Assembly: GCF_004343305.1 (NCBI RefSeq) | Contig: NZ_SMAF01000004.1 | Coordinates: 124,001-188,000, forward strand | Direction of reading: 5' to 3' | Length of the DNA stretch: 64,000 bases | Source: Pseudofulvimonas gallinarii | Lineage (GTDB): Bacteria > Pseudomonadota > Gammaproteobacteria > Xanthomonadales > UBA2363 | Shown here: piece after piece, positions 17,201 through 32,794 of the stretch | How the letters are laid out: every line of letters starts with the position of its first letter | How positions within the stretch are numbered: position 1 is the stretch's first letter | Position numbers and translations under genes: made by a program | The notes under the pieces: model-generated | Seen by the model: the letters and a program-made list of their open reading frames with translations, nothing else | What the model was told of the DNA's origin: nothing | Databases searched by the model: none

Positions 17201-17891
17201 GCCGCTGCTCGAGCAGCTCGTGGGCGTGCCGCTGGAACGCGCCGAAAGCCTGCTGCAGGGGAGCGGCGACAGCCGCGGCGACAACGGCCGCAGCGAGTAC
17301 AGCCGGGGCGTCACCGTCGTCCTCGCCGGCATGGTCGTCGACGTGCGCCAGCGCGGCGCCAGCCAGGGGTTCGTCTCGATCGAGGACTGGAGCGGACGGG
17401 TCGAAGCGAGTTTCTACGCCGAAGGCTGGCTGGACAACGCGCCGCGGCTGTCGCGCGAGCGCATCGTCCTCGTCGAAGGCCAGCTGCGTCCGGACAACTT
17501 CAATGGCGGCGGCGTCAGCCTGCGTGGTCGTGGCGTACTCGATCTCGACGAGGCGCTGGCACGCTTCGCGGAGTCCCTGCACCTGACCATCGACGCCGAA
17601 CGCTGCGACTTCCCTTCGCTGGCCGCCGAGCTGCGCGCCGCCCTGCCCGGCCGCTGCTCATTGCGCCTGCATCTGCGCACCGGATCGGCCCGGGGCGACC
17701 TCGTACCCGCTTTGGACTGGCGCCTTCGTCCCAGCCTCGACCTCCTCGACCGGCTGCGCACGCGGACCGGCATCGTCGAACTGGACCTGCGCCTGCGTCG
17801 CGCCAGTGCCCTGTCCACCGGGAACACGCCGCCGCCGGATACGCGCGACCACGACGAAGCACTGGCACTGCGCTACACAGCCGAAGCCTGA
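14238..17891 (+). CDS. dnaE: DNA polymerase III subunit alpha
   Basis: Replicative polymerase of 1217 residues (E. coli 1160). Domains in order: PHP (FVHLNTHSEYSLVDST at the N-terminus), polymerase palm with MPDFDIDFC (catalytic Asp pair near residue 414), GPGRGSGAGSLVAWSLG, the fingers (GIMVYQEQVMQIAQ, FNKSHAAAYALVAYHTAWLK), helix-hairpin-helix (AIRGVGENAVHAI) and a C-terminal OB fold (about 1025-1130; VTVVLAGMVVDVRQRG). The last 100 residues match the tau-binding region only loosely. It is split from rnhB by the minus-strand sigma-kinase pair, and no accA follows, unlike the common gammaproteobacterial order. Confidence 0.97.
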   Translation: MPARFVHLNTHSEYSLVDSTIRMPGKPQLGLPAKAGDRPNLVSRCVELGMPALALADQDNLFGLVKFYRACQTAGVQPIAGCDLRIGARREHEAPTRASVLCRNGNGYRSLSHLLTRAWMEAPRQDNRPLLPPQWLAEHAQELFLLLGSQSDVAAALAAGRDSEAERLLQRWQQHFGDRLYLTLSRTGRAHEAAWEPAALALAHRLGLPVVAQNDVRFLDREDYEAHEARVCIATGRVLGDPKRPREYSPEQYMKSPAQMAELFADLPEALDNTVELARRCTLELQLGTYFLPAFPVPEQETLDSWIRQEAERGLERRLARQALAPGRSREDYAARLHREVDVIVQMGFPGYFLIVADFINWAKNNGIPVGPGRGSGAGSLVAWSLGITDLDPLPYDLLFERFLNPERVSMPDFDIDFCMDRRDEVIDYVARKYGRDQVSQIITYGTMAAKAVVRDCGRVLGHPYGFVDGVAKLIPMTLGVTLEDALGRSDKARADSELSSPELIQRYNDEDEVRDLLDLALKLESLARNAGKHAGGVVIAPKPLSEFCPMYAEAGGLNPVTQFDKDDVESVGLVKFDFLGLRTLTIIDWAVKSINERLLLGGGSPVDLSTLPLDDRASYELFARADTVAVFQFESTGMRRMLKDAKPDRFEDLIALVSLYRPGPMDLIPDFIERKHGRQRVEYLDPRMEPILGPTYGIMVYQEQVMQIAQALGGYTLGGADLLRRAMGKKQPEEMAKQREIFREGAAKNGIAQAVADAVFDQMEKFAGYGFNKSHAAAYALVAYHTAWLKAHYPADFMAAVLSSDMDKTDKLVGFIGEAQAMRLAIEPPHVNRCDYMFKALDARRIAYGLGAIRGVGENAVHAIIEARARGGDFRDLADLCRRVDSGKLNRRVLETLIQSGACDGLGGNRATLMAQLPEAMRLAEQDHANAAAGQHDMFGMFQADSVLGTATLNVPAQPEWPLRQKLAAERDTLGWYLSGHPTSEYRPLLEQLVGVPLERAESLLQGSGDSRGDNGRSEYSRGVTVVLAGMVVDVRQRGASQGFVSIEDWSGRVEASFYAEGWLDNAPRLSRERIVLVEGQLRPDNFNGGGVSLRGRGVLDLDEALARFAESLHLTIDAERCDFPSLAAELRAALPGRCSLRLHLRTGSARGDLVPALDWRLRPSLDLLDRLRTRTGIVELDLRLRRASALSTGNTPPPDTRDHDEALALRYTAEA

Positions 17892-18313
17892 GCCACCGCG
17901 CCGCCAAGGTGTCGCAAGGCCAATCCCGGCACCAGACTCGGAAAATCAACCGGTTGCCGGATTGTTTGCGCAATCCCGGTGGAAGGCGACGTGGCGGCTT
18001 ACACGCTGGAAAACGTCCCCCGATACAAGGGGGCACACTCCGGACCATCCAGACTACGAAAAAAATCTCGGTGGTTCAAAAACTTGCGTCCGGATCTGGC
18101 GCTTGAATATCCGGGCGCCGCGATCGTTTCGTGGCGCAGCACGCTGGCAGGCGGCAACATGATTGACGGATATCGCTGCAAACGTTCGCGAGATTGAGAC
18201 TTGTGGCCGCTTGTTTGGTTAATATTCACGCGGCCCTGTCAGGTTGTGGCTCGTTCAGGCTAGGGGTGGGGCTCCACCGATTACAAGTTCTTAAGCCTTT
18301 TTTGGAGGGAAAA
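17892..18313 (+). other. Intergenic region between dnaE and the TonB receptor
   Basis: 422 bp without a convincing gene. Its second half is more A+T-rich than the surroundings. A possible promoter for the receptor lies at 18194-18225 (TTGAGA or TTGTGG upstream of TAATAT), but the spacing (20 or 13 bp) is poor. The strong ribosome-binding site GGAGGG at 18304-18309 sits 4 nt before the receptor ATG. No riboswitch or leader peptide was recognised. Confidence 0.5.
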
Positions 18314-21178
18314 ATGAAGCTGAGAAGATCCAAGCTCCACGAAGCGATCGTGGCGTCCTTCGCCTTGGGCCTGATGTCGCTCGCGTCCAGCGGCATTGCC
18401 GTCGCCCAGGATGAAGAGGCCGAACGCCTTGACGAGGTCACGGTCACCGGCACCCGCATCAAGAGCCAGACCATGACGGCCTCCGCGCCGATCACCGAAA
18501 TCAGCACCGAAGAATTCAAGTACTACGGTGCGACGACGGTCGAGGATCTGGTCAACCAGTATCCGCAGGTCGACCTGTACTTCGACAACTTCCAGAACAA
18601 CCCCTCCTACGGCCACTCGGTGGTGTCGCTGCGCTCGCTGGGTCCGGAGCGCACGCTGACCCTGGTGAATGGTCGTCGCCTGCCGGCCAGCCGCAACGAG
18701 CTGGCGGACACTTCGATTGTTCCGCCGGCGCTGATCAGCCGCGTGGACATCCTCACCGGTGGTGCTTCGGCCATTTATGGCGCCGACGCCGTCGCGGGCG
18801 TGGTCAATTTCATCCTCGACGACAAGTTCGAGGGTATCAGCGTGACCTACGGTTATTCCGCCTACCAGCACAACAACGACAACAAGGAAATGCAGCGCCT
18901 CAACGAAGAGGCGGGCTACGAGGCACCGACGGGTGATTCCGGTTTCGACGGCATCAGCCGCAGCGCCGACCTGATCGTCGGTGGCAGCTTCGGTGGTGAC
19001 CGCGGTCACGCCGTCGGCTGGATCACCTGGCGCGAGAACGACGCGCTGTACCACGGCCAGCGCGACTACACGCACTGCTCGGTGTGGTACGACGAGCCGG
19101 TGTGCGGTGGTTCGGGCACGGCCGACCCGGGCCGTTTCACCGTGGCCGAAGTGGGCGGTGCCAACCTGGGCAACTTCATCTACAACGGTTCCGGCTATGA
19201 GCCGGGCATCCACCTCTACAACTACGCGCCGGTTAACTTCTTCCAGCGCCCCGACAAGCGCATCACCGCCGGCTTCAGCTCGAGCTACGAGATCAACGAG
19301 TACTTCACGCCGTATGTCGAAGCGATGTTCCTGGAGCGTCGTTCCGAAATGCAGATCGCCGAATCCGGCGCCTTCGGCGTGCCCGTCACCGTGGACTGCA
19401 ACAACCCGCTGATCGGCAGCCTCTGCGCCGACGCCGGCGTCACCACGGAGCAGGCGCGCATCACGATGTGGAAGCGCAACGTCGAAGGCGGCCCGCGCCA
19501 CCACGCCTCCGACGACAGCATGTACCGCCTCACCGCCGGTGTTAAGGGCGCGATCATGCCGGAGTCCACCTGGACCTACGACATCTACGCGTCGTCGGGT
19601 CGTTACAAGACCACCGACATCGGTGTCAACGACTTCCTGATCAGCCGCATCGCCGCTGCCGCGCTGGGCTGTGAGGATCCGGTGTACGGCACCTTCGGTG
19701 GCTGCCAGCTGTGGGACATCTGGAACGACAACATCTCGCCTGAATCCGCTGCCGCAATGGCCGGTACCAGCTTCGCCATCTACAAGAACAGCTTCACCTC
19801 GCTGTCCGGCGTGGCCAGCGGCGAACTGGGCTTCGGCTTCCCGTCCGCCGACGGTGAGCGTATCGGCCTGGCCGTCGGTGCGGAGCGTCGTTCGTATTCC
19901 TACTCCAGCGTCTACGACACCGATTCCTCCGCCGGCAACTTCGCCGGTGCCGGCGCCGCCGACCTGCCGGTGAATGCCAGCAACTCCGTGACCGACCTGT
20001 TCCTGGAAGCCGGCGTGCCGATCTACGTCGGCGACGGCGTGCTGAACCGCTTCGATGCCTCGCTGGGCTACCGCTATTCGGACGACGACACCTCGGGCTC
20101 GAACGACACCTACAAGTTCGGCCTGTCGGCCCTGTTCCTGGACAGCAAGCTGCTGCTGCGCGCCGGCTACAACCGCGCTGTCCGTGCGCCGAGCCTGAAC
20201 GACATGTACTACCCGCAGCGCATCGCTCTGGGTGGCACGCGCGACTTCTGCGCCGGTCCGAACCCGGAGTACACCGCTGAGCAGTGCGCACGCACCGGCC
20301 TGCCGACCTCGGCCTACGGCAACGTTCCGGAAAACCCGGCCAACCAGTACAACGCCCTGACCGGCGGCAACCCCGACCTGCTCCCGGAAATCGCCGACAC
20401 CTACACCGTCGGTTTCGCCCTGGAGCCGATCAGGAACCTGAACCTGGCGCTGGACTGGTACCGCATCAAGATCGAAGACGCGATCGGCGGCATCGGCTAC
20501 AACAACATCCAGATCCTGTGCATGGAGCAGGGCCTGTACTGCGACCGCATCCATCGTGACGGCCGCTTCGGCGACTACGACCTGTGGATCGGCCTGGCCG
20601 CGGACCCGGGCACCGGCCACATCCGCAACCTCGCCGGCAACATCGGCATGGACGAGCGTGAAGGCCTCGACCTCAGCGCGAGCTACACCTGGAACCTCGG
20701 TCCGGGTCGCCTGAGCACCACCTTCGTCGGCAACTACATCCTGTCCGAGTACACGATGTCCCTGGCGAGCGATGCCAGCACGGCATACGAGTGCAAGGGC
20801 CTGGTCAATGACACGCAGGGCTGCCAGACGCCGAAGTGGCGCCACATCGCCCAGGCGCGTTATTCCTGGGACCGCTACGGCGTGGGTCTGCGCTGGCGCC
20901 ATATCGGCAGCGTGGATTACAAGGACGCCGCGAACGGTTCGCAGCTGACCGACGTGATCTGGCTGGGTTCGGGCGTGAAGTCCTACAACTACCTCGACCT
21001 GACCGGAAGCGTGAGCTTCGGCGCTGCCACCGTGTCGCTGGGTATCAACAACATCTTCGACAAGGAACCGCCGTTCGTCGGTGACGCCGATGGTGGCTTC
21101 GGCTCGCACGCCAACTCGCTGGGTGGCTACGACCAGGCCGGTCGCTACATCTTCGGCAGCATCACCCTGACGTTCTGA
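18314..21178 (+). CDS. TonB-dependent outer-membrane receptor
   Basis: Ligand-gated outer-membrane channel of 954 residues. It has a signal peptide (cleavage after about residue 31, AVA|QDEE), a TonB-box-like segment (LDEVTVTGTRI), a plug domain (APITEISTEEF, VEDLVNQYPQVD, GGASAIYGADAVAGVVNFI) and a C-terminal barrel with the ERR...N-G-P-L/F signatures (GGNPDLLPEIADTYTVGF) ending in the aromatic strand YIFGSITLTF. The start is set by GGAGGG 4 nt before the ATG. Substrate is not predictable: no siderophore, B12 or sugar genes are adjacent. The convergent neighbours are TPR-fused oxygenases. A strong terminator follows at 21208. Confidence 0.92.
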   Translation: MKLRRSKLHEAIVASFALGLMSLASSGIAVAQDEEAERLDEVTVTGTRIKSQTMTASAPITEISTEEFKYYGATTVEDLVNQYPQVDLYFDNFQNNPSYGHSVVSLRSLGPERTLTLVNGRRLPASRNELADTSIVPPALISRVDILTGGASAIYGADAVAGVVNFILDDKFEGISVTYGYSAYQHNNDNKEMQRLNEEAGYEAPTGDSGFDGISRSADLIVGGSFGGDRGHAVGWITWRENDALYHGQRDYTHCSVWYDEPVCGGSGTADPGRFTVAEVGGANLGNFIYNGSGYEPGIHLYNYAPVNFFQRPDKRITAGFSSSYEINEYFTPYVEAMFLERRSEMQIAESGAFGVPVTVDCNNPLIGSLCADAGVTTEQARITMWKRNVEGGPRHHASDDSMYRLTAGVKGAIMPESTWTYDIYASSGRYKTTDIGVNDFLISRIAAAALGCEDPVYGTFGGCQLWDIWNDNISPESAAAMAGTSFAIYKNSFTSLSGVASGELGFGFPSADGERIGLAVGAERRSYSYSSVYDTDSSAGNFAGAGAADLPVNASNSVTDLFLEAGVPIYVGDGVLNRFDASLGYRYSDDDTSGSNDTYKFGLSALFLDSKLLLRAGYNRAVRAPSLNDMYYPQRIALGGTRDFCAGPNPEYTAEQCARTGLPTSAYGNVPENPANQYNALTGGNPDLLPEIADTYTVGFALEPIRNLNLALDWYRIKIEDAIGGIGYNNIQILCMEQGLYCDRIHRDGRFGDYDLWIGLAADPGTGHIRNLAGNIGMDEREGLDLSASYTWNLGPGRLSTTFVGNYILSEYTMSLASDASTAYECKGLVNDTQGCQTPKWRHIAQARYSWDRYGVGLRWRHIGSVDYKDAANGSQLTDVIWLGSGVKSYNYLDLTGSVSFGAATVSLGINNIFDKEPPFVGDADGGFGSHANSLGGYDQAGRYIFGSITLTF

Positions 21179-21207
21179 TTCGTCCAGGACGTTCACTGCA
21201 ACACCTG

Positions 21208-21236
21208 GCGGCGGACTTCGGTCCGCCGCTTTTTTT
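21208..21236 (+). terminator. Rho-independent terminator of the TonB receptor gene
   Basis: A 9-bp G+C stem (GCGGCGGAC / GTCCGCCGC) with a TTCG tetraloop is followed directly by seven T residues, 29 nt after the stop codon. This is the clearest intrinsic terminator in the window. Confidence 0.93.
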
Positions 21237-21304
21237 ACCTGGTGGATACCGCGCTTGCTGCGCCCTGCGTGACCTGGCGGGTGCCCGTCGGCGGTGGGCC
21301 GTGA

Positions 21305-23008
21305 TTACACGCCGCCAGCCGTCCCGCGACGTGTCGACGGTTGCATGTCGAAGGCGATCGTGAGCCGCGGCTCCGTATCTTCAAAGGGCACGGTGCCGTG
21401 CCAGAGATACGAAGGAAACAGCGCCAGATGGCCCGGCCGGGGGCGGATCACGCGCCGGGGCGGCAGATCCAGGCCCAGGTCTTCCAGCGGTTGCCCGAAC
21501 TGGATCCAGCCCGCGTGGCCCGGGTCGTCACCCGCGAACACGTGCCGGGGCAGTGCGACGTAGAACGCCGAGCTGGCCCAGCCACTGCTGTGGATGTGGT
21601 TGCTGTGGTGTCCCGAGGCGTTGAGCCTGACGGACCACGAGCCGACGAAACGTACGCCGCCCTGTTTGCGTGAAAGAAACGGATGCGAAGGATCGTCCGG
21701 CAGGACACTCAGCCAGCGCTCGACCGCCGCGCGCAAGGCGGACTCCGCTGCGCCGATCACCGCGACATCGCGGCCAAACAGGCGTCCGGCTGTCTGCGTG
21801 CCACCGCGGACACTCTGGCTTACCGGCTCCCGACTGGCGTTGTGCATGGGGTGCAGGGCTTCCGCCAGTTCCTGCAGAAAGTCTTCCAGGTCACCGAATC
21901 CGGGCGGCGGATCGATCGCCATGTAACCGACCAGCGTCTCGTAGTCGCACAACCAGTGCTCTTTCTCGTTTGCGGTCAGCCGCCACGCCAGCCCAAGCAG
22001 GCTCCATGCATCCTGGTCGTCCGGCGCTTGCGCAACGGCCTGCCCGGCACACCGTTGCGCCAGTTCGACATCCCCACAGCGGAACGCATGTCGCGCCCGC
22101 GCGTTGAGAAAGGCGGGCAAGGCGCCCAGTGACGTCCGGCTCGCGGCGGCATACAGGGCGCCAGCCTCTGCGTGGTGTCTCAATGCGTCCTGCGCATCGG
22201 CGGCAAACCAGGCCAGCACCGGATCGTCCGGATCGCGATGTCGCAAGGGCTTCAGCACCGCCAGCGCTTCCTCGGGCCGGCGGGTGGCCAGCAACATCCG
22301 CGTGAAGGCCAGTTGCAGCGCGCGGTTGCCCGGCTGCGCTGCCGCGGCGGTCCTGAATTCAGCGAGGGGATCTTCTCCTGGCGCCAGCTCGGCGCCGTTC
22401 TCCCACAGCAGATGGCTCAGGGTCTCATGGCCCGCGGCATGGGCGGGATGCGCGGCGACCAGCTTGCGTGCGCCGGCCAGTGCCTCGGCCGTGCGTCCGG
22501 CGTCGGCAAGCACGCCGTTGATTGCGTCCTGCACCTCCGGCAGGGGCTCACCGCGCTGTGCGGTCAGCAGCTCCGCATGCCGGTAGGCCTCGAGTGCTTC
22601 GTCGATCCGCCCCAGCGAGCGCAGCACCGTGCCCAGGTCGATCCATACGGACAACGGCGCCTCGCGCAAGGCCAGAGCCCTGCGCAGGACCTGCTCCGCC
22701 GACTCGAGCTCTCCCTGGACGCGAAGCGTCCTTCCGTAACGCGCGAGGAACACGCCATAGTTGCGGGCCAGCACCGGGTTGTCGGGCAACAGCGCCAAGG
22801 CGCGCTGGAAGGCGGAATCGGCCTCGCCGGGGCGATCGTTTGCAGCCAGGCACATCCCCAGGAGCTGCCATGCATCGGCAGCGCGTGGCACTTCCGAGCT
22901 GAGCGCTGCGGCAATGCGCAAGGCCTCGGCCGGCTGCCCAGCCTGCAGCAGTCGCTGTGCTTGCAGGAACCGGACGGCCTGCGTGGCGTCGAGTCGCTGG
23001 CCGGCCAC
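21305..23008 (-). CDS. TPR protein fused to a putative 2OG-Fe(II) oxygenase
   Basis: 567 residues from a GTG start. Residues 1-340 are TPR-like helical repeats (ALRIAAALSSEVPRAADAWQLLG, ADSAFQRALALLPDNPVLARNYG). The C-terminal domain (about 370-567) matches the putative 2OG-Fe(II) oxygenase family PF13759: HSNHIHSSGWASSAFYVALP (His471 and His473) and PGHLALFPSYLWHGTVPF (His537) followed by RLTIAFDM (Arg548). These supply the iron ligands and the 2-oxoglutarate-binding Arg. No signal peptide is seen, so it is probably cytoplasmic. It lies 14 bp after the small exported protein on the same strand. Substrate is unknown; a protein or peptide hydroxylated after TPR recognition is an inference. Confidence 0.85.
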   Translation of the reverse strand: MAGQRLDATQAVRFLQAQRLLQAGQPAEALRIAAALSSEVPRAADAWQLLGMCLAANDRPGEADSAFQRALALLPDNPVLARNYGVFLARYGRTLRVQGELESAEQVLRRALALREAPLSVWIDLGTVLRSLGRIDEALEAYRHAELLTAQRGEPLPEVQDAINGVLADAGRTAEALAGARKLVAAHPAHAAGHETLSHLLWENGAELAPGEDPLAEFRTAAAAQPGNRALQLAFTRMLLATRRPEEALAVLKPLRHRDPDDPVLAWFAADAQDALRHHAEAGALYAAASRTSLGALPAFLNARARHAFRCGDVELAQRCAGQAVAQAPDDQDAWSLLGLAWRLTANEKEHWLCDYETLVGYMAIDPPPGFGDLEDFLQELAEALHPMHNASREPVSQSVRGGTQTAGRLFGRDVAVIGAAESALRAAVERWLSVLPDDPSHPFLSRKQGGVRFVGSWSVRLNASGHHSNHIHSSGWASSAFYVALPRHVFAGDDPGHAGWIQFGQPLEDLGLDLPPRRVIRPRPGHLALFPSYLWHGTVPFEDTEPRLTIAFDMQPSTRRGTAGGV

Positions 23009-23022
23009 GGGCCTGCGGACCC

Positions 23023-23439
23023 TCAGCGGACCCGCCGAACCCGCACGGCCACGCCATTGGCCGTCGTCATGATGTAATTGCCGACCATTCCCCGGCGTAC
23101 GCTGACGGTGTCGCCGGGCCTGACCTGGGCATTGACCTTGGCATCCGTCTGCACCCAGACATGGCCGTTTTCGAGGGTGACACTGCGTGCGCCCCGCGCG
23201 TAGTCCACCGACGACACGCGACTCTCCACGCGTCCGGGTTCGACGGACTTCTCGAGGCCGAAGTCGCTGCGGGCGGCATCCGGGGCGCTCATGACCGCGC
23301 CCGGATCAGGCGGGAACGCCGCGTCATAGCATTCCAGGCGCGCCGAAGGGTCGGCAACCCTGGCGCAGGGATGACTGGAGGCCAGCGCCGGCAGCGGCGA
23401 AGCGAGCAGGCAGGTCAGCAGGATCGTGAACGGGCGCAT
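23023..23439 (-). CDS. Small exported protein with ARLxCYD motif, function unknown
   Basis: 138 residues from ATG 23439 (141 from ATG 23448). A signal peptide (MRPFTILLTCLLASPLPALA) precedes HPCARVADPSARLECYDAAFPP. This Cys-x(11)-Cys pattern with ARLxCYD occurs at the mature N-terminus of many proteobacterial envelope proteins and probably forms a disulfide. The C-terminal 80 residues look like a small beta domain (SVTLENGHVWVQTD, VRPGDTVSVRRGMVGNYIMT). It is set between the two TPR-oxygenase genes on the same strand. No enzymatic motif is seen. Confidence 0.78.
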   Translation of the reverse strand: MRPFTILLTCLLASPLPALASSHPCARVADPSARLECYDAAFPPDPGAVMSAPDAARSDFGLEKSVEPGRVESRVSSVDYARGARSVTLENGHVWVQTDAKVNAQVRPGDTVSVRRGMVGNYIMTTANGVAVRVRRVR

Positions 23440-23583
23440 CAGATACATGGCGTGAGTTGATGTGGGCAAAGCATACCTTGCGATGGCGTGCCACGCGGCC
23501 CTTGCGCAAAAGCCGGCCCGGCCCGTAACGCGGCCATCAAGCCGGCTCGGCGCGCCCACAGCGTGCATCAAGGCGTGAACCGG

Positions 23584-24852
23584 TCAGCCGGCCGAACGCC
23601 ACTTGCTCATCGCGCCTGCGAGCGCCGAAGCCATCTCGCGCTCGGCCAGCGACAGCAGCGGATTCCAGACATCGAACATCAGGATCACGCGGGTCTGGCC
23701 GCTGTCGTTGCGCGCCTCGTGTTCGATGGTGTCATCGAACACCCAGCACTTCCCTTCCCGCCAGGGCTTCCAGTCATAGCCGACCCGAAACCTGCAGTCT
23801 TCGGGAACCACCAGCGGCAGGTGCGCGACCAGCCGCGCATTGGTTTCACCGGTATGCGGCGGGATGTGTGCGCCAGGTGCCAGGGCGGAGAACATCGCGT
23901 TCGGACACAGCCCAGGAATGTCCACCGCATCCACGAGCGCCAGCGCTTCGGCGGTGCGGGGGCACTCGGCGAGATGTTCCTCGACGGGTCTGCCATGCGC
24001 ATACAGGTGGAACCCGCTCCAGTTGCGCGAGTGGTTGAGCTTGTCCCACTGGTTGACCGGATCGTCGGGACCGTACTGGATGTACGGAACGAATTCCTCG
24101 CCCCGCCGGGCGAGCATGTCCTGCAACTCGGCCTTGATCACCCCGGTGCGGGATTCCAGATCCTGCAACCAAGGGAACAGCGCCTCGTCGTAGAACGTGA
24201 CTGCCGGCAGGCGCGGGACGTGCAGCTGGTTGCAGATGGATGGGAACGGCCTTGTCTTGCCGGCCAGGATCGAGATCGCCTCGTCCCACCGGCCGTCCTG
24301 CGCCGCTTCCACGCCAGACCGCTCGGCTGCGACCTCGTGTCTCAGAAAGTCGACCAGCTCCTCGCTGTCGCGTCGCACCGCTTCACGCGCATGTTCCAGG
24401 CGACGGCGCAGCGCCGGCGGCCAATGCGGCTCCTCCGGAGCGACCTTGAGTGCATTCCGGAATACGGTTGCGGCGACGCGTGGCTGGCCCTCGCTTTCGA
24501 GGAATTCGCCCTTTTCCAGCAGCCCGGGCAGGAAATACGGATCGATCGAAAGAGTGGCAATGATCGCGTTCCACTGCTCCTTGCCGCGACCGGCATCACG
24601 ATGCACGCGCGCGATGCTGAGCGGGATCATCGGATCCTTCGGGGCACGCTGATGCGCCGCGTGCAGCAGCTCCAATGCGCCTTCACGATCACCGCGCTGG
24701 AATGCGTGGACACCCAGGCTGAAGAGTGCCTGGACGTTGTCGGGGTCGATCTGGCGAACCTGCTGCCAGAGTCGCTCGGCCTCCTGCCAGCGGCCCGCCG
24801 ACATGGCTGCACCCGCCGACTGGATCAGTCCCCTCAGATCGCTCGTGCCCAT
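23584..24852 (-). CDS. TPR-fused aspartyl/asparaginyl beta-hydroxylase
   Basis: 422 residues from ATG 24852. The N-terminal 140 residues contain TPR repeats (AGRWQEAERLWQQVRQIDPDNVQALFSLGVHAFQRGD in pieces). The C-terminal domain (about 210-400) is the PF05118 beta-hydroxylase. It has IPPHTGETNARLVAHLPL with His333 and Arg340, EGKCWVFDDTIEHEARN with His378, and TRVILMFDVW with Arg388; these are the two iron-binding His and the 2-oxoglutarate Arg of this family. TPR plus this catalytic domain resembles human ASPH. A TATACT -10-like element lies at 24890-24885 on the minus strand. It heads a probable three-gene minus-strand unit with the two genes downstream. Confidence 0.88.
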   Translation of the reverse strand: MGTSDLRGLIQSAGAAMSAGRWQEAERLWQQVRQIDPDNVQALFSLGVHAFQRGDREGALELLHAAHQRAPKDPMIPLSIARVHRDAGRGKEQWNAIIATLSIDPYFLPGLLEKGEFLESEGQPRVAATVFRNALKVAPEEPHWPPALRRRLEHAREAVRRDSEELVDFLRHEVAAERSGVEAAQDGRWDEAISILAGKTRPFPSICNQLHVPRLPAVTFYDEALFPWLQDLESRTGVIKAELQDMLARRGEEFVPYIQYGPDDPVNQWDKLNHSRNWSGFHLYAHGRPVEEHLAECPRTAEALALVDAVDIPGLCPNAMFSALAPGAHIPPHTGETNARLVAHLPLVVPEDCRFRVGYDWKPWREGKCWVFDDTIEHEARNDSGQTRVILMFDVWNPLLSLAEREMASALAGAMSKWRSAG

Positions 24853-25177
24853 CGGATCAGCCGCGCCGCCAACGTATTTCCGGGAGTATAGGCCAACCAG
24901 GTTGGCACCAGACAGCCCGTAAACGCCCTGGAAACAGCGTCGCGCGCCTGTTGCACGACGCGTGCACCCCGGATCCTGTCGAGCGGAGTCCCGTCGCGGG
25001 AACTGCCGGCCCGCGACCTGCGGATCGCCTGGAGCGGTCGCGGCGCGCTTCAAAGCGGCCGGCCCGCAGGCGGGATCCGGCCCAACGGCAAAACTTGCAT
25101 ATTTTGCATCGCAAAACATCTCCATTACCCTGATGCCGTAAAAAGGATCCCGACAGCACGGACAGGGGGTGGCTGGC
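24853..25177. other. Divergent promoter region between hydroxylase and hybrid sensor kinase
   Basis: 325 bp, no gene. It must contain promoters in both directions. An A+T-rich island at 25088-25140 stands out in this G+C-rich window and includes repeated GCAAAA motifs. On the minus strand TATACT (24890-24885) may serve the hydroxylase gene. Confidence 0.55.
25088..25117. promoter_or_regulatory. GCAAAAC repeat cluster, candidate operator
   Basis: GCAAAAC occurs at 25088-25094 and 25111-25117, 23 bp apart (about two helical turns), with TTTTGC between them (25102-25107). TTTTGC-ATC-GCAAAA forms a 15-bp dyad. It lies about 60 bp before the sensor-kinase start, a likely transcription-factor binding place. 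Confidence 0.45.
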
Positions 25178-28100
25178 GTGTCGACTTCAAACTGGTGGTT
25201 GGCGCTTGCACTTGCAATCGGATCGTCGGGCATCGCCTTGGCGGACGGCGCCGAATCCGCAGCGTCGCGCGTCCCGGAGCACCCGCTTTTCCGGCAGTTC
25301 GGCACCGCGCAAGGCCTCCCCTCGGCCACGGTCTTCAAGCTCGCGCAGTCCCGCGACGGCAGCCTCTGGATTGCCACGCTCGACGGCCTGGCGCGATACG
25401 ACGGCGTCGGCTTCCACATCTGGCGGCACGATCCCGCCGATCCGCGAAGTGTTCCGGACAACGACATCGAATACGTGCTGGTGGACAGCGACGACCGCGT
25501 CTGGATTGCCGCGCAGAACGCCGGCATCGCCCGCTACGAGCCCGACACGGACAGCTTCCTCCGCTGGCAGCACGATCCCGCCGACCCGGACAGCCTGCCG
25601 GGCAATCGCGTCTGGGCACTGGCCGACGATGGCGACGGTGGCCTGTGGATCGGAGGCTTCCGCATCGGCCTGGTGCGCATGCATCGCGACGGCCGCTTCG
25701 AATCCCTGCGCGAGGCGATGACGGCCGGGCCGGACGGCTGCGACGACATCGTGCTGGCGATTGCCCGCGGCAGCGACGGCGTCGTCTGGGCCGGCACCAA
25801 TGCCGGGCTCTGCCGCTGGCATCCGCAGGCCGGATTCAGCCGCGTGGATATCGATGACCTCAATCCGCGACAACGCGTCATCGCCCTCCGGCTTGCCGAC
25901 GATCGTCCGTGGCTGGCCACGCAATCCGGGCTGCGCGGTGCCGCGGGCCTGGGCATGCCGACACCGCCGATCGACGACAGCCGCGGCAGCCTTTCCGTCG
26001 AGCTGGAACCGGACGGCTGGATCTGGCTGGGCACGCGAAATGGCGCCTGGCGCTGGCATCCGTCCTCCGGCGCCACAGCCGTCCATCGAGCCAGACCTGG
26101 GCACGTGATGAGCCTCCCGGCGCACAGCATCGAGGACATCCTCCGCGACCAGGAGGGAAGCCTCTGGTTCGCCACGCACGGTGGCATCGCGCAGCTGGTG
26201 CCGCACTGGCGCGCCATCCGGGTCTACATGAGCGAATCCTCGCACCAGGGCGGCCTGCCCGAAGGCCGACCCCGGTTCGTCACGGCCGGCGGTGATGGAC
26301 AGCTGTGGGTCACTTCCGATACCAGCCGCGGCCTCAGCCAGCTCGATCCTGCCAGCGGCAAGGTGACTCGCCGGTTCGTCGAAGGCGATGGTGCAGCGGC
26401 GCCTGATTCGAACATGCGTGCGGTGCGGGTCGACCGACGCGGACAGCTGTGGCTGGGCCATCGCGCAGCGGTGTCGCGTGTGCTTCCGGACGGAAAGGGA
26501 TACCGACGTTTCGACCGCGACATGGATGGACAGCCCCTGCCGCAGACGCTGGTGCGCGTCTTCGCCGAGGTGGACGACGGGCTGGTGCTTGCCGGCTTCG
26601 GCGGCGGCGGCGTTGCCTGGATCGATGACGACGCGGGTACGCTGCAGTTCGATCCGCTGGGCGTGGCCGCCGGCCTGCCGTGTGCGCAGGCCGCAGACCT
26701 CCATGTCGACGAAAGTGGCGGCGTGTGGCTGGCCTGCGAACAGGGCCTGCTGCGCGCGCAGGCCGGCCAGCGCCGGTTCCGCGCCGTTTCCGGGGCACCG
26801 GCGCAGTCGGTGCATGGCTTCGCCTTCAGCCGCGACGGATCGATCTGGCTGCACACGCTCGGACACCTGGGTCGCTACCGGCTGGTCGATGGCGCCGTCC
26901 AGATGCTCGACAGCGTCGGTGCGAGCGATGGCTGGCCCGTCGTGGATGCGGGCGGCGTCGCCATCGACCCGGCCGGCCTGGTCTGGGTGAACACCCGGCG
27001 CGGACTGCTGGTTTTCGATCCGCAGACACGGCGCATCTCGTCGTATGGCGAGGCGCATGGCCTGCCCTCGTCTGAATTCATCTCGGTGCCACCGGCGTGG
27101 CTGGCACCGGGACTGCTGGCGGCCGGCACCACGGCCGGTGTCGTGGTGGTTGACACCTCCCGTATCCGCGCCCACCTGCCCCAGTCCACTTTGCGATGGC
27201 GCGACGGCAGTGTGTCGCGGCGGGGAACACTCCACCCACTCCGGCCGGGTGACGGGCAGGCCTGGCAGCTGGCGTATGATGACCGCGACCTGCGCGTGTC
27301 GGTGCGACTGGGCAGCCTGCTGCAACCGGATGCCCACCGCTACCGCTTCCGTCTCGACGACGAGCCCTGGCAGGAACAGGCCGGTCAACCCGAACGGATC
27401 ATCGACCGCCTGCCCAGCGGTCGCCATGTCCTCGAGGTCGACGCCTTCGGCAGCGACGGACAACCGGCGGCCAATCGCCTGCGCCAGGTGATCGAAGTCG
27501 GGCAGCCGCCGTGGCGACAGCCCTGGGCACTCCTGCTTTATCTGCTTGCATCGATAGCAGCCATGCTGCTGGGTCAGCGGCTCTATCGTCGTCGCCTGGA
27601 GCGGCGCCATGCCCTGGTGCTGGCCGACGAACGACGGCAATGGGCGGAACAGGCCAGCGCCGCAAAGACGCGCTTCCTCGCGGCGGTCGGCCACGAACTG
27701 CGCACGCCGATGGCCGGGCTGCTGGGCATGAACGAACTGCTGTCGGCGACGGATCTGGATGCACGGCAGCGACATTTCTCCGCGTCGATCCAGCGCGCCG
27801 GCGGCCACATGCTGACGCTGGTCAACGATCTGCTCGACCTTTCACGCATCGAATCCGGACAACTCACGCTTGAGCCGCGCGACCTCGACCTGGTGGCCTG
27901 CCTGGACCAGGTCATCGGCGACGTCGCCGCGAATGCAGAAAGCAGGCAACTACGACTGTCGCTGCGCATCGAGCCGGGAACGTCGCTCTCCGTGCGCGCC
28001 GATGGCAAGCGGCTGCACCAGGTGCTGCTGAACCTGGTCAACAACGCCATCAAGTTCACCGCGCAGGGCCATGTCCGCGTGTGCGTGTCGCGGCACGACG

Positions 28101-29113
28101 GCAGGCACCGCTTCGAAGTCATCGACAACGGACCGGGCATCTCGGACGAGCTGCGCCATCGTCTTTTCGAGCGCTACAGCCAGGATGAGGCCGGCCGCCG
28201 TTCCGGTGGCAGCGGCCTGGGCCTGGCCATCGCGCGCGAGCTGGTAGAGTTGATGGCCGGCAGGATCGATGTGGACGCCGCTCCGGGCGGCGGCAGCCGT
28301 TTCTGGTTCGAGGTGGACATCGGCCCGGTACATGCGGCGGCGCCCCGGGACGGCGCCGCGCGCGCACCGCGCGTTGTGGTGCTGGATGACGATGCGACGC
28401 GACGCGACGATCTGCTGACCACGCTGCGCGCACTGGGCATCGACACGGCCACCGAGGCCGATGCCGATGTGTCGGCCCTGCTGGTGGCCGACGTCAGCGC
28501 ACAGGTCGCGCAGTGCCTGGAACACGCGCGCCGGTTCAAGCGCGCGGTGATATCGATTCCCCTCGCCTGTCCCGTGCCCGCGCTGCCGCCTTCGATCTTC
28601 CTCCAGCACGGCCCCTGGGCGCTCCGCCCTCTGCTCGCCACCCTGCACCGCACGACACCGATGGAGCGCATCGACAACCGGCGCGGGGAAAAGCCTCTTG
28701 CCGGGCATGCACCCCTCTATGGCCGCTGCCTCCTGCTGGTCGAAGACGACGCCATCCTCGGCGAGGTCACCGCCAGCCAGTTGCGCCGCCGCGGCGCCCA
28801 TGTCGATGTCGCCAGCGATGGCCTTGCCGCGCTCGTGGCCATCGGCAGCACCACCTATGACGGCATCGTGCTCGACCTCGACCTGCCTGAACTGGATGGC
28901 CTGCAGGTGATGGAGCTGATGCGGAACACGCTGCAGGCGATGCCACCCGTCGTCGTCGTCACCGCTCGCCAGCAGGACGAGGACCAGTCGATGTGCCGCG
29001 CGCGCGGCGCGCGCGCGTTCTTCCGCAAGCCGGTTGACCCGGACCACCTGGTGGCGGCTCTGGGGACGGTCATTTCGGATGAGGGCGGCGATTCCAGCCT
29101 CACGAACAAGTAA
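25178..29113 (+). CDS. Hybrid two-component sensor kinase with propeller-type periplasmic sensor
   Basis: 1311 residues from GTG 25178, which has AGGGGG about 9 nt upstream; an in-frame GTG at 25169 lies on that site. A signal-anchor or signal peptide is followed by repeated two-component-regulator propeller blades (SRDGSLWIATLDGLARYDG, DDRVWIAAQNAGIARYEP and similar up to about residue 670). Next come a Y_Y_Y-type beta domain (RYRFRLDDEPWQEQ), a membrane helix (about 781-800), HisKA (phospho-His in AVGHELRTPMAG, about 837), HATPase (NLVNNAIKF, DNGPGI, GGSGLGLAIA), a degenerate receiver (about 1065-1160) and an intact receiver (1184-1303: VEDD, LDLDLPELDG, VTAR, RKPV). There is no DNA-binding domain, so a separate regulator must exist. 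Confidence 0.9.
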   Translation: MSTSNWWLALALAIGSSGIALADGAESAASRVPEHPLFRQFGTAQGLPSATVFKLAQSRDGSLWIATLDGLARYDGVGFHIWRHDPADPRSVPDNDIEYVLVDSDDRVWIAAQNAGIARYEPDTDSFLRWQHDPADPDSLPGNRVWALADDGDGGLWIGGFRIGLVRMHRDGRFESLREAMTAGPDGCDDIVLAIARGSDGVVWAGTNAGLCRWHPQAGFSRVDIDDLNPRQRVIALRLADDRPWLATQSGLRGAAGLGMPTPPIDDSRGSLSVELEPDGWIWLGTRNGAWRWHPSSGATAVHRARPGHVMSLPAHSIEDILRDQEGSLWFATHGGIAQLVPHWRAIRVYMSESSHQGGLPEGRPRFVTAGGDGQLWVTSDTSRGLSQLDPASGKVTRRFVEGDGAAAPDSNMRAVRVDRRGQLWLGHRAAVSRVLPDGKGYRRFDRDMDGQPLPQTLVRVFAEVDDGLVLAGFGGGGVAWIDDDAGTLQFDPLGVAAGLPCAQAADLHVDESGGVWLACEQGLLRAQAGQRRFRAVSGAPAQSVHGFAFSRDGSIWLHTLGHLGRYRLVDGAVQMLDSVGASDGWPVVDAGGVAIDPAGLVWVNTRRGLLVFDPQTRRISSYGEAHGLPSSEFISVPPAWLAPGLLAAGTTAGVVVVDTSRIRAHLPQSTLRWRDGSVSRRGTLHPLRPGDGQAWQLAYDDRDLRVSVRLGSLLQPDAHRYRFRLDDEPWQEQAGQPERIIDRLPSGRHVLEVDAFGSDGQPAANRLRQVIEVGQPPWRQPWALLLYLLASIAAMLLGQRLYRRRLERRHALVLADERRQWAEQASAAKTRFLAAVGHELRTPMAGLLGMNELLSATDLDARQRHFSASIQRAGGHMLTLVNDLLDLSRIESGQLTLEPRDLDLVACLDQVIGDVAANAESRQLRLSLRIEPGTSLSVRADGKRLHQVLLNLVNNAIKFTAQGHVRVCVSRHDGRHRFEVIDNGPGISDELRHRLFERYSQDEAGRRSGGSGLGLAIARELVELMAGRIDVDAAPGGGSRFWFEVDIGPVHAAAPRDGAARAPRVVVLDDDATRRDDLLTTLRALGIDTATEADADVSALLVADVSAQVAQCLEHARRFKRAVISIPLACPVPALPPSIFLQHGPWALRPLLATLHRTTPMERIDNRRGEKPLAGHAPLYGRCLLLVEDDAILGEVTASQLRRRGAHVDVASDGLAALVAIGSTTYDGIVLDLDLPELDGLQVMELMRNTLQAMPPVVVVTARQQDEDQSMCRARGARAFFRKPVDPDHLVAALGTVISDEGGDSSLTNK

Positions 29114-29114
29114 T

Positions 29115-29138
29115 ATCCCTTCATCGCGATAAAGGGAT
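29115..29138. promoter_or_regulatory. 24-bp near-perfect palindrome, candidate operator of the met operon
   Basis: The outer arms ATCCCTT (29115-29121) and AAGGGAT (29132-29138) flank the palindrome ATCGCGAT (29123-29130). All share one centre (29126/29127), with a single mismatched pair (C29122/A29131). The right end overlaps the first base of the metX -35 hexamer. There is no U-run, so a terminator for the preceding gene is less likely than a repressor site. Confidence 0.6.
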
Positions 29139-29167
29139 TGACAGGCGGATGGCGACCGCCCTAACCT
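29138..29167 (+). promoter_or_regulatory. Sigma-70-like promoter of the metX operon
   Basis: A perfect -35 TTGACA (29138-29143) is followed after 18 bp by TAACCT (29162-29167), a weak -10. Transcription would start near 29174, at the first base of the riboswitch stem, which supports the assignment. Confidence 0.65.
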
Positions 29168-29174
29168 GCGGCCA

Positions 29175-29285
29175 CCATCGAGACCGGCTGAGGGACAGGC
29201 CCGAAGAAGCCGGGGCAACCCAGGACTGCGCAAGCAGGCCGAAGGTGCCAATTCCTGCGTCGCGCATCCGTGCGACGGCAGATGG
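29175..29285 (+). promoter_or_regulatory. SAM-I (S-box) riboswitch ahead of metX
   Basis: The closing stem P1 is CCATC (29175-29179) with GATGG (29281-29285). Inside are the conserved core pieces: GAGACCGGCTGAGGGA, GGCCCGAAGAAGCCGGGGCAACC in order, the variable P3 stem, and GGTGCCAATTCCTGC near 29244-29258. These are the diagnostic S-box blocks (CUGAGGGA, GGCCC, GGCAACC, GGUGCCAAUUCC). It should turn off metX-metB-hom when S-adenosylmethionine is high. About 95 nt separate it from the metX ATG; I see no strong terminator U-run there, so control may be at translation. Confidence 0.92.
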
Positions 29286-29379
29286 AACGTGTCATCCCAG
29301 CGCGCTGCCCTGCGCGTGGGGGTCCACGAACATCCGCACCCTCGATGGCCTTCCTGCCACCACTTGAGGAGTGCCAACG

Positions 29380-30438
29380 ATGAGCCTGCACCCCACCGGA
29401 TCCCGCGACACCCTGGTCCCTTTCGCTGCCGGGAGCCCTCCTTCGTCCTTTCCCGACTGCCGCCCAGCCCATGTCACCGCCGAACGCGGCGAATGCTGGT
29501 TCAGCCTGCCCCTGCGCCACGGCGGCACGCGCGCCGTGCGTATCAGCTACGAATCCCAGGGGCCGCAGAACGCGCCCTGCGTGCTGGTGCTCGGCGGCAT
29601 TTCAGCGCATCGCCATCTCGCATCCAGCCGGCGCTATCCGGAAGCCGGCTGGTGGCCGGGCCAGGTCGGCATCGGCAAGTCGCTGGATCCGCGACGGCTG
29701 CGGTTGCTCGGCATTGACTGGCTGGGCGCGGACGGACAGATCGATGCACCGCTCGATACGGCCGACCAGGCCGACGCCATTGCGTGCGTACTGGATGCCC
29801 TCGGCATTCGCCGCCTGCGTGCGCTGATCGGTGCATCGTATGGCGCGCTGGTCGGACTGCAGTTCGCCGCCCGCCACGGCGAGCGCCTTCGCCACCTGCT
29901 GGCAATCAGCGGTGCCCATCGGCCGCATCCGTTTTCCAGCGCCTGGCGCAGCGTGCAGCGCGCCATCGTCCGCCTCGCCACGAACGGGGAAGATCGACGC
30001 AACGCGGTCGCCGTCGCCAGGCAGCTGGCCGTTCTCAGCTATCGCAGTCCGGAAGAGTTCGCCGCGCGCTTCGATGCACCTGCGACTCGCAACGGTGATC
30101 GTTTCGAAGTGGCGGCCGAGAGCTACCTGCGCCACCAGGGCGATCGCTTCAGCGCCGCCTTCTCCGCTACCGCCTTCGAGCGCCTGTCCGAATCGATCGA
30201 TCTGCACCACGTCGATCCAGGCAGCATCCGCGTGCCGACCACGGTCGTCGGCGTCCACGAGGACCGGCTGGTGCCGCTCGACGACCTGCGCCAGCTGGCC
30301 GCTTCGCTTGCCGGCCCGGGCCGACTGGTCAGCCTGCACTCGCTGTACGGCCACGACGCCTTCCTCAAGGAAGACGATGCGATCGCCGGCGTGATCACCT
30401 GGGTCCTGGCGGAAGGCGAAACGGAGGTGGCCGCATGA
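29380..30438 (+). CDS. metX: Homoserine O-acyltransferase (MetX family)
   Basis: Alpha/beta-hydrolase-fold enzyme that activates homoserine with an acyl-CoA, the first committed step to methionine. The 352-residue protein (ATG 29380, GAGGA 9 nt upstream) has the nucleophile elbow GASYGA (Ser153), Asp295 in VHEDRLVP and His325 in YGHDAFLKE, the complete catalytic triad. MetX proteins use acetyl-CoA or succinyl-CoA depending on lineage; the sequence alone does not settle which. It is first in a SAM-riboswitch operon and overlaps metB by ATGA. Confidence 0.92.
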   Translation: MSLHPTGSRDTLVPFAAGSPPSSFPDCRPAHVTAERGECWFSLPLRHGGTRAVRISYESQGPQNAPCVLVLGGISAHRHLASSRRYPEAGWWPGQVGIGKSLDPRRLRLLGIDWLGADGQIDAPLDTADQADAIACVLDALGIRRLRALIGASYGALVGLQFAARHGERLRHLLAISGAHRPHPFSSAWRSVQRAIVRLATNGEDRRNAVAVARQLAVLSYRSPEEFAARFDAPATRNGDRFEVAAESYLRHQGDRFSAAFSATAFERLSESIDLHHVDPGSIRVPTTVVGVHEDRLVPLDDLRQLAASLAGPGRLVSLHSLYGHDAFLKEDDAIAGVITWVLAEGETEVAA

Positions 30439-31631
30439 GCCGGCCGCGCAGTTTCGCCACCGCTGCGGTGCGCGCCGGCATCGACTGCGACAGCCAGCAT
30501 GGTGCGGTCACGCCGCCGCTGCACCTGAGCAGCAATTTCAGTTTCGACGGTTATGGCGGCAAGCGCCGATACGACTACACGCGCAGTGGCAATCCCACCC
30601 GCGACTTGCTGGCCGAAGCGCTTGCGGAACTGGAGGGCGGCGCGGGTGCCGTCGTCACCGCCAGTGGCATGGCGGCGATCACCACTGTGCTGGCGCTGCT
30701 GGAACCCGACGACCTGATCGTCGTGCCGCACGACGGCTACGGCGGCAGCTGGCGCCTGTTCACGGCCCTGGCACGCAAGCGGCACTTCCGGCTGGCCGTG
30801 GTCGATTTCCAGGATCCGGTCGCCCTCGGCGAAGCGCTCGCGCGTCGGCCGCGACTGCTGTGGATCGAGACGCCGAGCAATCCGCTGCTGCGCCTGACCG
30901 ACATCCGCTTCGCCGCCGAAGTGGCGCATCGCGCCGGCGCCCTGGTCTGCGTTGACAACACCTTCCTGTCGCCGGCGCTGCAGCAACCGATCACGCTCGG
31001 CGCCGATCTGGTGGTGCATTCGACAACCAAGTACATCAACGGCCACAGCGACGTGGTCGGTGGTGCGGTGATCGCGAAAGACGCGGCCCTGCACGAACAG
31101 CTGGCGTGGTGGGCGAACGCATTGGGCGTCACCGGCAGCCCCTTCGACAGCCTGCTGACGCTGCGCGGCCTGCGCACGCTGCCGATCCGGCTGCGCCAGC
31201 ACGAGGACAACGCCTGCAGCATCGCCGAACGGCTGCAACACCACCACGCCGTCTCGGCCGTGCATTACCCGGGCCTGGGAAGTCATCGCCAGCATGCGCT
31301 GGCCGGCAGGCAGCAGTCCGGATTCGGTGCCATCGTCAGCCTGGAACTCGAAGGCGGCGAACGGGCCGTGCGCGCCTTCATCGACGGCCTGCGATGTTTC
31401 ACGCTGGCCGAATCGCTGGGTGGCGTCGAAAGCCTGGTGGCGCACCCGGCCAGCATGACGCACGCCGCGATGTCCGCCGAGTCACGCGCTGCCGCCGGCA
31501 TAAGCGACGGCCTGTTGCGCCTCTCGGTGGGCATCGAAGACATCGGCGACCTGCTGGCTGATCTTGACGACGCACTAGGTCGGGCCAGCGCCACCCCGGA
31601 GCGGCAGGCGCAGATCGGACGGGTGTCATGA
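30435..31631 (+). CDS. metB: Cystathionine gamma-synthase (Cys/Met metabolism PLP enzyme)
   Basis: PLP enzyme of 398 residues that condenses O-acylhomoserine with cysteine to give cystathionine. The schiff-base Lys199 sits in VVHSTTKYINGHSDVVGG; the family start TAAVRAG and the YDYTRSGNPTR phosphate-binding loop are present, as is VDNTFLSP. Position between metX and hom supports synthase over lyase. An O-acylhomoserine sulfhydrylase activity cannot be excluded. It overlaps both neighbours by ATGA. Confidence 0.9.
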   Translation: MSRPRSFATAAVRAGIDCDSQHGAVTPPLHLSSNFSFDGYGGKRRYDYTRSGNPTRDLLAEALAELEGGAGAVVTASGMAAITTVLALLEPDDLIVVPHDGYGGSWRLFTALARKRHFRLAVVDFQDPVALGEALARRPRLLWIETPSNPLLRLTDIRFAAEVAHRAGALVCVDNTFLSPALQQPITLGADLVVHSTTKYINGHSDVVGGAVIAKDAALHEQLAWWANALGVTGSPFDSLLTLRGLRTLPIRLRQHEDNACSIAERLQHHHAVSAVHYPGLGSHRQHALAGRQQSGFGAIVSLELEGGERAVRAFIDGLRCFTLAESLGGVESLVAHPASMTHAAMSAESRAAAGISDGLLRLSVGIEDIGDLLADLDDALGRASATPERQAQIGRVS

Positions 31632-32794
31632 CGGCGGCGCTTGACCCGGTTCCGTACAAGACGGGCCCGACGGGAACGGTGCAGCTTGCGTTGTTGGGCA
31701 CGGGTACGGTCGGGTCTGCCCTGCTGCAGCGGCTGCAGCGACTTGAAGCCATCGGCCCGGACATACGCCTGCGCCTGGTGCATGTCGCCAATTCACGCCA
31801 GGCGGTCAGCTCGATGGCCGGCATCGATGCCGGCCGCACCGCCGGACTGCTGGCGACCTCACGCCGGTCCCCCGACATGTCCGACCTCGAAACCGTCTTC
31901 GGTCCGGCTGTCACCCGCATCGTCATCGATGCGACCGCCTGCGCGCAAACCGCAGCGCGGCATGCGCGGTGGCTGCAGGATGGCATCCATGTCGTGACCG
32001 CCAACAAGCTGGCCCTGGGGGGCAGCCAGGCACAATGGACGCAGCTGCGCCACGCGCAGGCCATAGGCGGAACACGCTATGGCGACAGCGCGACGGTCGG
32101 CGCCGGCCTGCCGCTGTTGCGGACGATCCGCGCTCTGCGCGAAGGGGGCGACCGCATCCATGCGCTGGCCGGCATCCTGTCCGGATCGCTGGCCTGGCTG
32201 TTCGACCGGTTTGATGGCGCGCAGCCGTTTTCGCGATGCGTTCGCGAAGCCTGGAAGGCGGGCTATACCGAGCCCGATCCCCGCGAAGACCTGTCCGGCC
32301 AGGACGTCCGGCGCAAGCTGCTGATCCTCGTGCGCGCCGCCGGATGGGCCCTGGAACCCGAACACATCGACGTCGAATCGCTGTCCACCGGTGCGCTGTC
32401 GAAGGGCCGGCCTGAAGACGTCGCCGGTCTGCTTGATGGCCTTGATGACGCCCTCGGTGCCCGCCTTGATCGTGCGCGCGCCGCGGGGACGGTGCTGCGT
32501 CATGTCGCGCGCCTCGAAGCGGACGGCCGGGCAAGCGTGGGCCTGGTCGCGCTCGCGCCCGACGATCCGCTGACCTCCGGCCGCGGCACCGACAACCGCG
32601 TTGCGATCTGGAGCGAACGCTACAGCGAGCGTCCGCTGGTCATCCAGGGCCCGGGCGCCGGCGCCGGCGTGACGGCCGCCGCCCTGCTCGACGACGTGCT
32701 GGCGATTGCACGCGTGGCTGAGCCGGTTTCCCGGGCAGGATGGAAGCGGACACGCGGATCACATGCTGCAGGGCGGCACCTCAGCACTCGATGA
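31628..32794 (+). CDS. Homoserine dehydrogenase
   Basis: Reduces aspartate semialdehyde to homoserine, supplying the metX substrate. The 388-residue protein has an N-terminal Rossmann motif ([12 protein letters not shown]), [12 protein letters not shown], and the catalytic-domain block [22 protein letters not shown] with the conserved D-x-x-G-x-D...K residues. There is no aspartokinase domain and no C-terminal ACT domain, so feedback inhibition by threonine through ACT is not expected. The C-terminal [17 protein letters not shown] resembles the ThrA type. The last 14 bp overlap the 3' end of the convergent sdaA. Confidence 0.92.

Follow-up and report, generated by a model that had tools for sequence, protein, structure and literature searches.

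A conserved pairing of a TonB-dependent receptor (TBDR) gene with a neighboring gene for a cytosolic 2-oxoglutarate (2OG)/Fe(II) oxygenase has been described in several bacteria: CciT-CciO, PiuA-PiuC in Pseudomonas and Acinetobacter, and Fiu-YbiX in E. coli. In Caulobacter crescentus, the function of CciT strictly requires CciO (PMC12004947). The molecular connection between the two was left open by the authors, who discussed siderophore transformation (PMC12004947, PMC12004943), and CciO/PiuC have been proposed to act on the compound transported by the adjacent receptor (PMC12004943, PMC12004947). The reason why a TBDR should depend on a cytosolic oxygenase was likewise left open in closing discussion (PMC12004947). 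The locus described here lies in a 64-kb window (the whole stretch of DNA that we analyzed) and has the same general layout, but its two oxygenases belong to families PF05118 and PF13759 and are both fused to TPR repeats, with no match to the NCBIfam models of the PiuC/YbiX family (NF003972-NF003975). Moreover, the gene set to which it belongs adds TPR-fused sulfotransferases and a small exported protein, and neither Fiu nor PiuA is closely related to the window receptor. Other points of comparison are offered by the catalytic family PF05118. Human aspartyl/asparaginyl beta-hydroxylase (AspH) shares with the window enzyme the N-terminal TPRs and the PF05118 domain, with an iron site formed by two histidines and an arginine for 2OG; the window enzyme differs in being bacterial and, as predicted from its sequence, cytosolic, with neither signal nor membrane anchor, and no EGF-like domains are encoded in its neighborhood. 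The lipid hydroxylases LpxO and OlsC have the same catalytic family in common, but are without TPRs and act on lipids.

The preliminary description of the window had reported a block of five genes, and all five are present in that order and on those strands, with Pfam and NCBIfam assignments in agreement. The TBDR gene (18314..21178, plus strand) encodes 954 amino acids with a signal peptide, a Plug domain (Pfam, 6.7e-20) and a barrel (6.3e-31). Convergent to it is the gene for a TPR-PF13759 2OG-Fe(II) oxygenase (21305..23008, minus strand; 567 aa from a GTG start; PF13759 5.7e-21, TPRs 1e-21). Then follow, on the same strand, the genes for a small exported Cys-containing protein, hereafter SMALL (23023..23448; 141 aa from the ATG, signal peptide), and for a TPR-PF05118 aspartyl/asparaginyl beta-hydroxylase-like oxygenase (23584..24852; 422 aa; PF05118 1.5e-43), so that both oxygenases are indeed TPR-fused and encoded on one strand (21305-24852) with SMALL between them. 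Divergent from the PF05118 gene, and separated from it by 316 bp, is a gene for a two-component-regulator-propeller hybrid histidine kinase (25169..29113, plus strand; Reg_prop, HisKA, HATPase_c, one receiver). Since the spacings within the minus-strand trio are 135 and 14 bp (the latter between SMALL and the PF13759 gene), these three genes probably form one operon. Signal-peptide-like N termini are found on the TBDR and on SMALL, and on neither oxygenase. The whole genome holds one PF13759 gene and one PF05118 gene, which are these two neighbors.

The metal-binding histidines and the 2OG arginine, which the first reading had noted in both oxygenases, are present and invariant across relatives. 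In the PF13759 enzyme, whose relatives in similar gene sets show 42-54% identity, H471, H473, H537 and R548 are intact and invariant in the alignment of relatives. In the PF05118 enzyme the same holds for H333, H378 and R388 in an alignment with 28 relatives; these align with H679, H725 and R735 of human AspH. The suggested resemblance of the TPR-PF05118 layout to AspH holds in sequence (E about 1e-23) and in predicted fold, with AspH the best PDB match by both. The predicted structure (pLDDT 92.6, 28 sequences) consists of helical repeats at residues 2-137 and an oxygenase fold; its ten best PDB matches are human AspH chains that comprise both TPR and oxygenase domains, and the next are TPR chains of O-GlcNAc transferase. 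The TM-score to AspH is 0.80 for the oxygenase domain alone and 0.44 for the whole chain, the latter because the TPR and oxygenase domains are oriented differently from those of human AspH. The NCBIfam models of OlsC (E 6.6e-31, 107 bits against a cut-off of 450) and LpxO (E 9.8e-18, 64 bits against 500) also match the PF05118 domain, with scores so far under the curated cut-offs that we rejected an identity as lipid A or ornithine-lipid hydroxylase.

The set proved to be both genuine and conserved. The preliminary description had made its reading depend on conservation of the neighborhood in relatives, and the neighborhood recurs in other genera and families. Using SMALL alone as query against 84,980 species genomes, and scoring set membership by six-frame profile searches of the loci, we recovered the set in Luteimonas, Arenimonas, Vulcaniibacterium and Steroidobacteraceae. 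Arenimonas metalli (L192) has the order SulB-SMALL-PF13759-PF05118-SulA-TBDR, where SulA and SulB are sulfotransferases; the other best SMALL matches inside the set come from Vulcaniibacterium gelatinicum (L188), Arenimonas (L189), Luteimonas (L185, L187, L191), a metagenome-assembled genome (MAG, L186) and Steroidobacteraceae (L190, L194, L241). Across 200 genomes of the order, eight of the nine strong SMALL matches lie inside the set or beside its PF13759 gene. The receptors form a discrete clade in the same 200 genomes, with 17 matches in 16 genomes at 533 bits or more; a few others follow at 277-344 bits, while the remaining TBDRs score 242 bits or less. At least one TPR-oxygenase or TPR-sulfotransferase was found in the fetched stretch for 15 of these 17 receptors, and one of the two enzyme-less receptors sits at the end of a short contig. 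Among all fetched loci, 30 distinct ones combine a receptor of the clade with at least one enzyme, and their partners are SulB (22 loci), SMALL (21, and thus absent from nine), PF05118 (19), SulA (14) and PF13759 (13). The set is best described as one receptor of the clade accompanied by a small protein in the periplasm and by TPR-armed cytosolic enzymes in varying combinations. Pairwise distances of receptor and partners are correlated (Spearman 0.61-0.85, with none of 500 Mantel shuffles equally high), which fits units inherited together, but is also expected from plain common descent. No inner-membrane permease or biosynthetic core enzyme is part of the set in the related loci. The 1135 short ORFs in 33 loci proved to be only out-of-frame shadows of large genes, and a RiPP biosynthesis cluster was rejected for want of a conserved short precursor peptide gene in these loci. 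Our literature search, confined to published open-access papers, turned up neither an account of the set nor one of TPR-oxygenases or TPR-sulfotransferases occurring with TBDRs.

What most often accompanies the receptor clade is a TPR-fused sulfotransferase. The majority of set versions include one or two such enzymes; the window version has none. They belong to PF13469 (E 1e-34 to 1e-49), and both of their types, SulA and SulB, have a TPR arm of their own. The one strong TPR-sulfotransferase of the genome under study (PF13469 3.5e-47; G000:C6, L136 9496-14200) adjoins another TBDR, on the same strand. The enzymes drawn upon by the set comprise AspH-like PF05118, PF13759 and the two PF13469 types, with a dioxygenase of the PiuC/CciO family in some lineages: L190, L194 and L203 each have, within the set, a dioxygenase of 221 aa that scores above the NCBIfam cut-off for the PiuC/YbiX group, the Steroidobacteraceae versions scoring 194-198 bits with NF003974 against a cut-off of 143.

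As a control, 23 loci with TPR-fused PF05118, chosen before adjacency was known (15 from the order, 8 class-wide), were compared with 18 loci of non-TPR PF05118, counting a TBDR as a neighbor within about 10 kb. A TBDR is found near 15 of the 23 TPR-fused genes versus a single one of the 18 others (Fisher p=1e-4), and a TPR-sulfotransferase near 15/23 versus 0/18 (Fisher p=9e-6). Therefore, it is the TPR arm, and not the catalytic family, that goes with the receptor. Together, the conservation and control tests show that receptor and oxygenase genes are neighbors more often than by chance. Related arrangements extend beyond the order: Polymorphobacter (Alphaproteobacteria) has a TBDR, a SMALL homolog and PF05118, and Pseudoalteromonas piscicida (Alteromonadales) has a TBDR, TPR-PF13759 and PF05118. 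In Catenovulum (Alteromonadales), a sucrose-type cluster (GH32, MFS, LacI, amylosucrase) contains a TBDR gene and, behind it, genes for a TPR-PF13759 enzyme and a tryptophan halogenase. This carbohydrate TBDR locus, on a plasmid of Catenovulum adriaticum, resembles the window in the succession of TBDR and TPR-PF13759 genes, but differs in having a sugar permease, hydrolases and a LacI regulator, and in the halogenase that replaces PF05118 and the sulfotransferases. Genes for TPR-PF13759 and short PF13759 proteins are repeatedly found head-to-head (e.g., G107:C97, G163:C18, G052:C3, G178:C26), and many of the short PF13759 genes also have an unrelated TBDR gene no more than a few kb away.

The window receptor shows 44-53% identity to its nearer relatives. 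Features specific to its clade are the Cys pairs C255/C264 and C827/C837, together with Asn/Tyr/Asp motifs. All its matches to siderophore and B12 receptor models are far under cut-off and mainly in the plug, and the nearest solved chains, of which BtuB is the best (2.4e-15), also cover mainly the plug. The window receptor and that of L185 have an altered first Cys loop in common, CSV[WF][YF]DExxC versus CALNxxGTxC, and these are the two receptors without nearby sulfotransferases; they are mutual closest relatives (68% identity), and as sister sequences they count as one occurrence. Ordinary receptor diversification explains the Cys loops equally well. An EGF-like AspH target motif was considered in the receptor and rejected: the C255-x8-C264 spacing fits, but the spacing varies between relatives, and the residues of the loop depart from the AspH recognition consensus.

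SMALL has no Pfam or NCBIfam match and carries the motifs C-x(8)-RLxCYD and TLxNGQVW. Its predicted structure, a helical hairpin and a six-stranded beta domain (mean pLDDT 84.9), finds no PDB match at E<=0.001. The protein belongs to a widespread proteobacterial family, recruited here to the gene set, whose distant members in Microbulbifer, Pseudoalteromonas, Shewanella and Ferrimonas occur without the set. Residues C28, R37, L38, C40, D42, N94, G95 and W98 are equally conserved in 56 relatives with none of the set's enzymes in their neighborhood; D42 and N94 are invariant, and Y41 is mostly kept.

We suggest, at somewhat less than an even chance, that the cytosolic TPR enzymes hydroxylate, and where present sulfate, the receptor before its export, with the assistance of SMALL. 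According to this hypothesis, the TPR arms would capture freshly synthesized receptor while it is still in the cytosol, presumably the sole compartment with Fe(II), 2-oxoglutarate and PAPS. There, before Sec export, the oxygenase domains would add hydroxyl groups to the side chains of Asp/Asn or other residues, and the sulfotransferases, where present, would sulfate Tyr or hydroxyl groups, at sites that would become extracellular or plug loops of the receptor. The small exported protein would assist the receptor in the periplasm, and the changed loops would alter its binding partners. We further consider, more tentatively, that the hydroxy-Asp/Asn and sulfo-Tyr (or related) marks written by TPR-armed hydroxylases and sulfotransferases may set ligand specificity, which would also explain why receptors such as CciT need a cytosolic dioxygenase. 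Tailoring of the receptor is the best-supported reading, although its place as substrate, its chemical modification and the part played by SMALL are inferred. The receptor is favored as substrate because it is the fixed member of the set while the enzymes vary, because the enzymes are cytosolic and each has a protein-binding arm, and because the genome's one strong TPR-sulfotransferase, encoded elsewhere, also adjoins a TBDR. That the substrate is a protein is favored since the enzymes with the closest solved structures, AspH and the O-GlcNAc transferase TPR arm, act on proteins.

The main alternative is that the enzymes build, activate, detoxify or break down the transported ligand, be it a siderophore, a peptide or another compound, which we regard as unlikely but a serious contender. 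In favor of this explanation, small molecules are frequent substrates of free-standing 2OG oxygenases and sulfotransferases. A further point for it is the PiuC/YbiX-group dioxygenase in the Steroidobacteraceae versions of the set, since CciO and PiuC of that family have been proposed, as noted above, to act on what the neighboring receptor transports. The set, however, includes neither an inner-membrane permease nor a conserved gene for a peptide, and a biosynthetic core enzyme is likewise absent from it, which again argues for the receptor; the version of the enzyme that accompanies receptors is the one with a TPR (protein- or peptide-binding) arm. Moreover, the TPR-PF13759 enzyme also occurs with the apparent sugar receptor of Catenovulum, in a sucrose-type cluster whose ligand needs no such chemistry. 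Another exported protein, and SMALL in particular, would be a distinctly improbable substrate. Its gene is only 14 bp from the PF13759 gene, and the exported product offers D42, N94 and mostly Y41 as candidate residues, but its conserved residues are identical in the 56 relatives of a broad family without enzymes nearby, and it is missing from 9/30 receptor-enzyme loci. SMALL therefore appears to be the less likely substrate, and the constancy of its residues with or without enzymes favors the receptor.

That the five genes form one unit with the hybrid kinase as its regulator, as the preliminary description had supposed, is very improbable. The receptor, both TPR-oxygenases and SMALL do recur together, which leaves that part of the proposal standing. 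The kinase is divergent from the PF05118 gene and, in L072, a propeller hybrid kinase adjoins the PF13759 gene, but this is the one other occurrence beside an oxygenase gene among about 35 related loci; the kinase's link to the set is thus one of position, and we ruled it out as a member. Still less probable is that the enzymes modify an envelope lipid or glycan like LpxO and OlsC and lie near receptors only as envelope genes, since the model matches cited above are far under their cut-offs, the nearest solved structure is AspH, and the more LpxO/OlsC-like non-TPR PF05118 genes are near a receptor in just 1/18 cases.

TBDRs are among the best-studied uptake proteins of bacteria, and with this set there is now a specific motive for seeking modified residues in one of them; Luteimonas, Arenimonas metalli and Vulcaniibacterium gelatinicum are cultivable carriers. 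If receptor tailoring is true, the set would be a bacterial counterpart of AspH and, to our knowledge, the first system found to be devoted to the beta-hydroxylation and sulfation of outer-membrane proteins in bacteria. If the ligand is instead the substrate, the set would point to a new class of sulfated or hydroxylated uptake compounds.

Other genes were observed beside members of the set. A class-I methyltransferase gene (about 316 aa) lies next to SulB in L138, L189 and L210, where it was confirmed with Pfam, and one of similar size and position is found in L075 and L188; it is possibly a further tailoring enzyme. The Steroidobacteraceae loci L190, L194 and L241 carry SMALL and PF05118 genes in duplicate, and beside these a gene for an aspartyl-protease-like protein (PF13650, confirmed in L190) and one for a small sulfotransferase-like protein. 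In another family of the order (L081, L084, L085, L141), the receptor clade occurs with DUF547 and TPR/transglutaminase-like proteins beside SulB. In Luteimonas sp. BLCC-B24 (L185 11379-12126), the PF13759 gene is spread across several frames, by decay or sequencing errors, while the PF05118 and receptor frames are open.

Two genus-mates (L285, L286) keep lpxB-rnhB-dnaE, carry accA and tilS after dnaE, and have no such set. Because the set is found at different positions in other genera, it appears, from gene order, to have moved or been gained as a unit. In the window (17891-34163), dnaE is followed by the receptor set, which breaks the usual dnaE-accA synteny; after the set come genes for an acyltransferase-like alpha/beta hydrolase, a cystathionine-type PLP enzyme, a homoserine dehydrogenase-like protein and a serine dehydratase. 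Upstream, a Ser/Thr kinase with C-terminal TPRs (928 aa) and then an ECF sigma factor (PF07638) are encoded at 10764-14104, a pair inserted between rnhB and dnaE, which are adjacent in both genus-mates.
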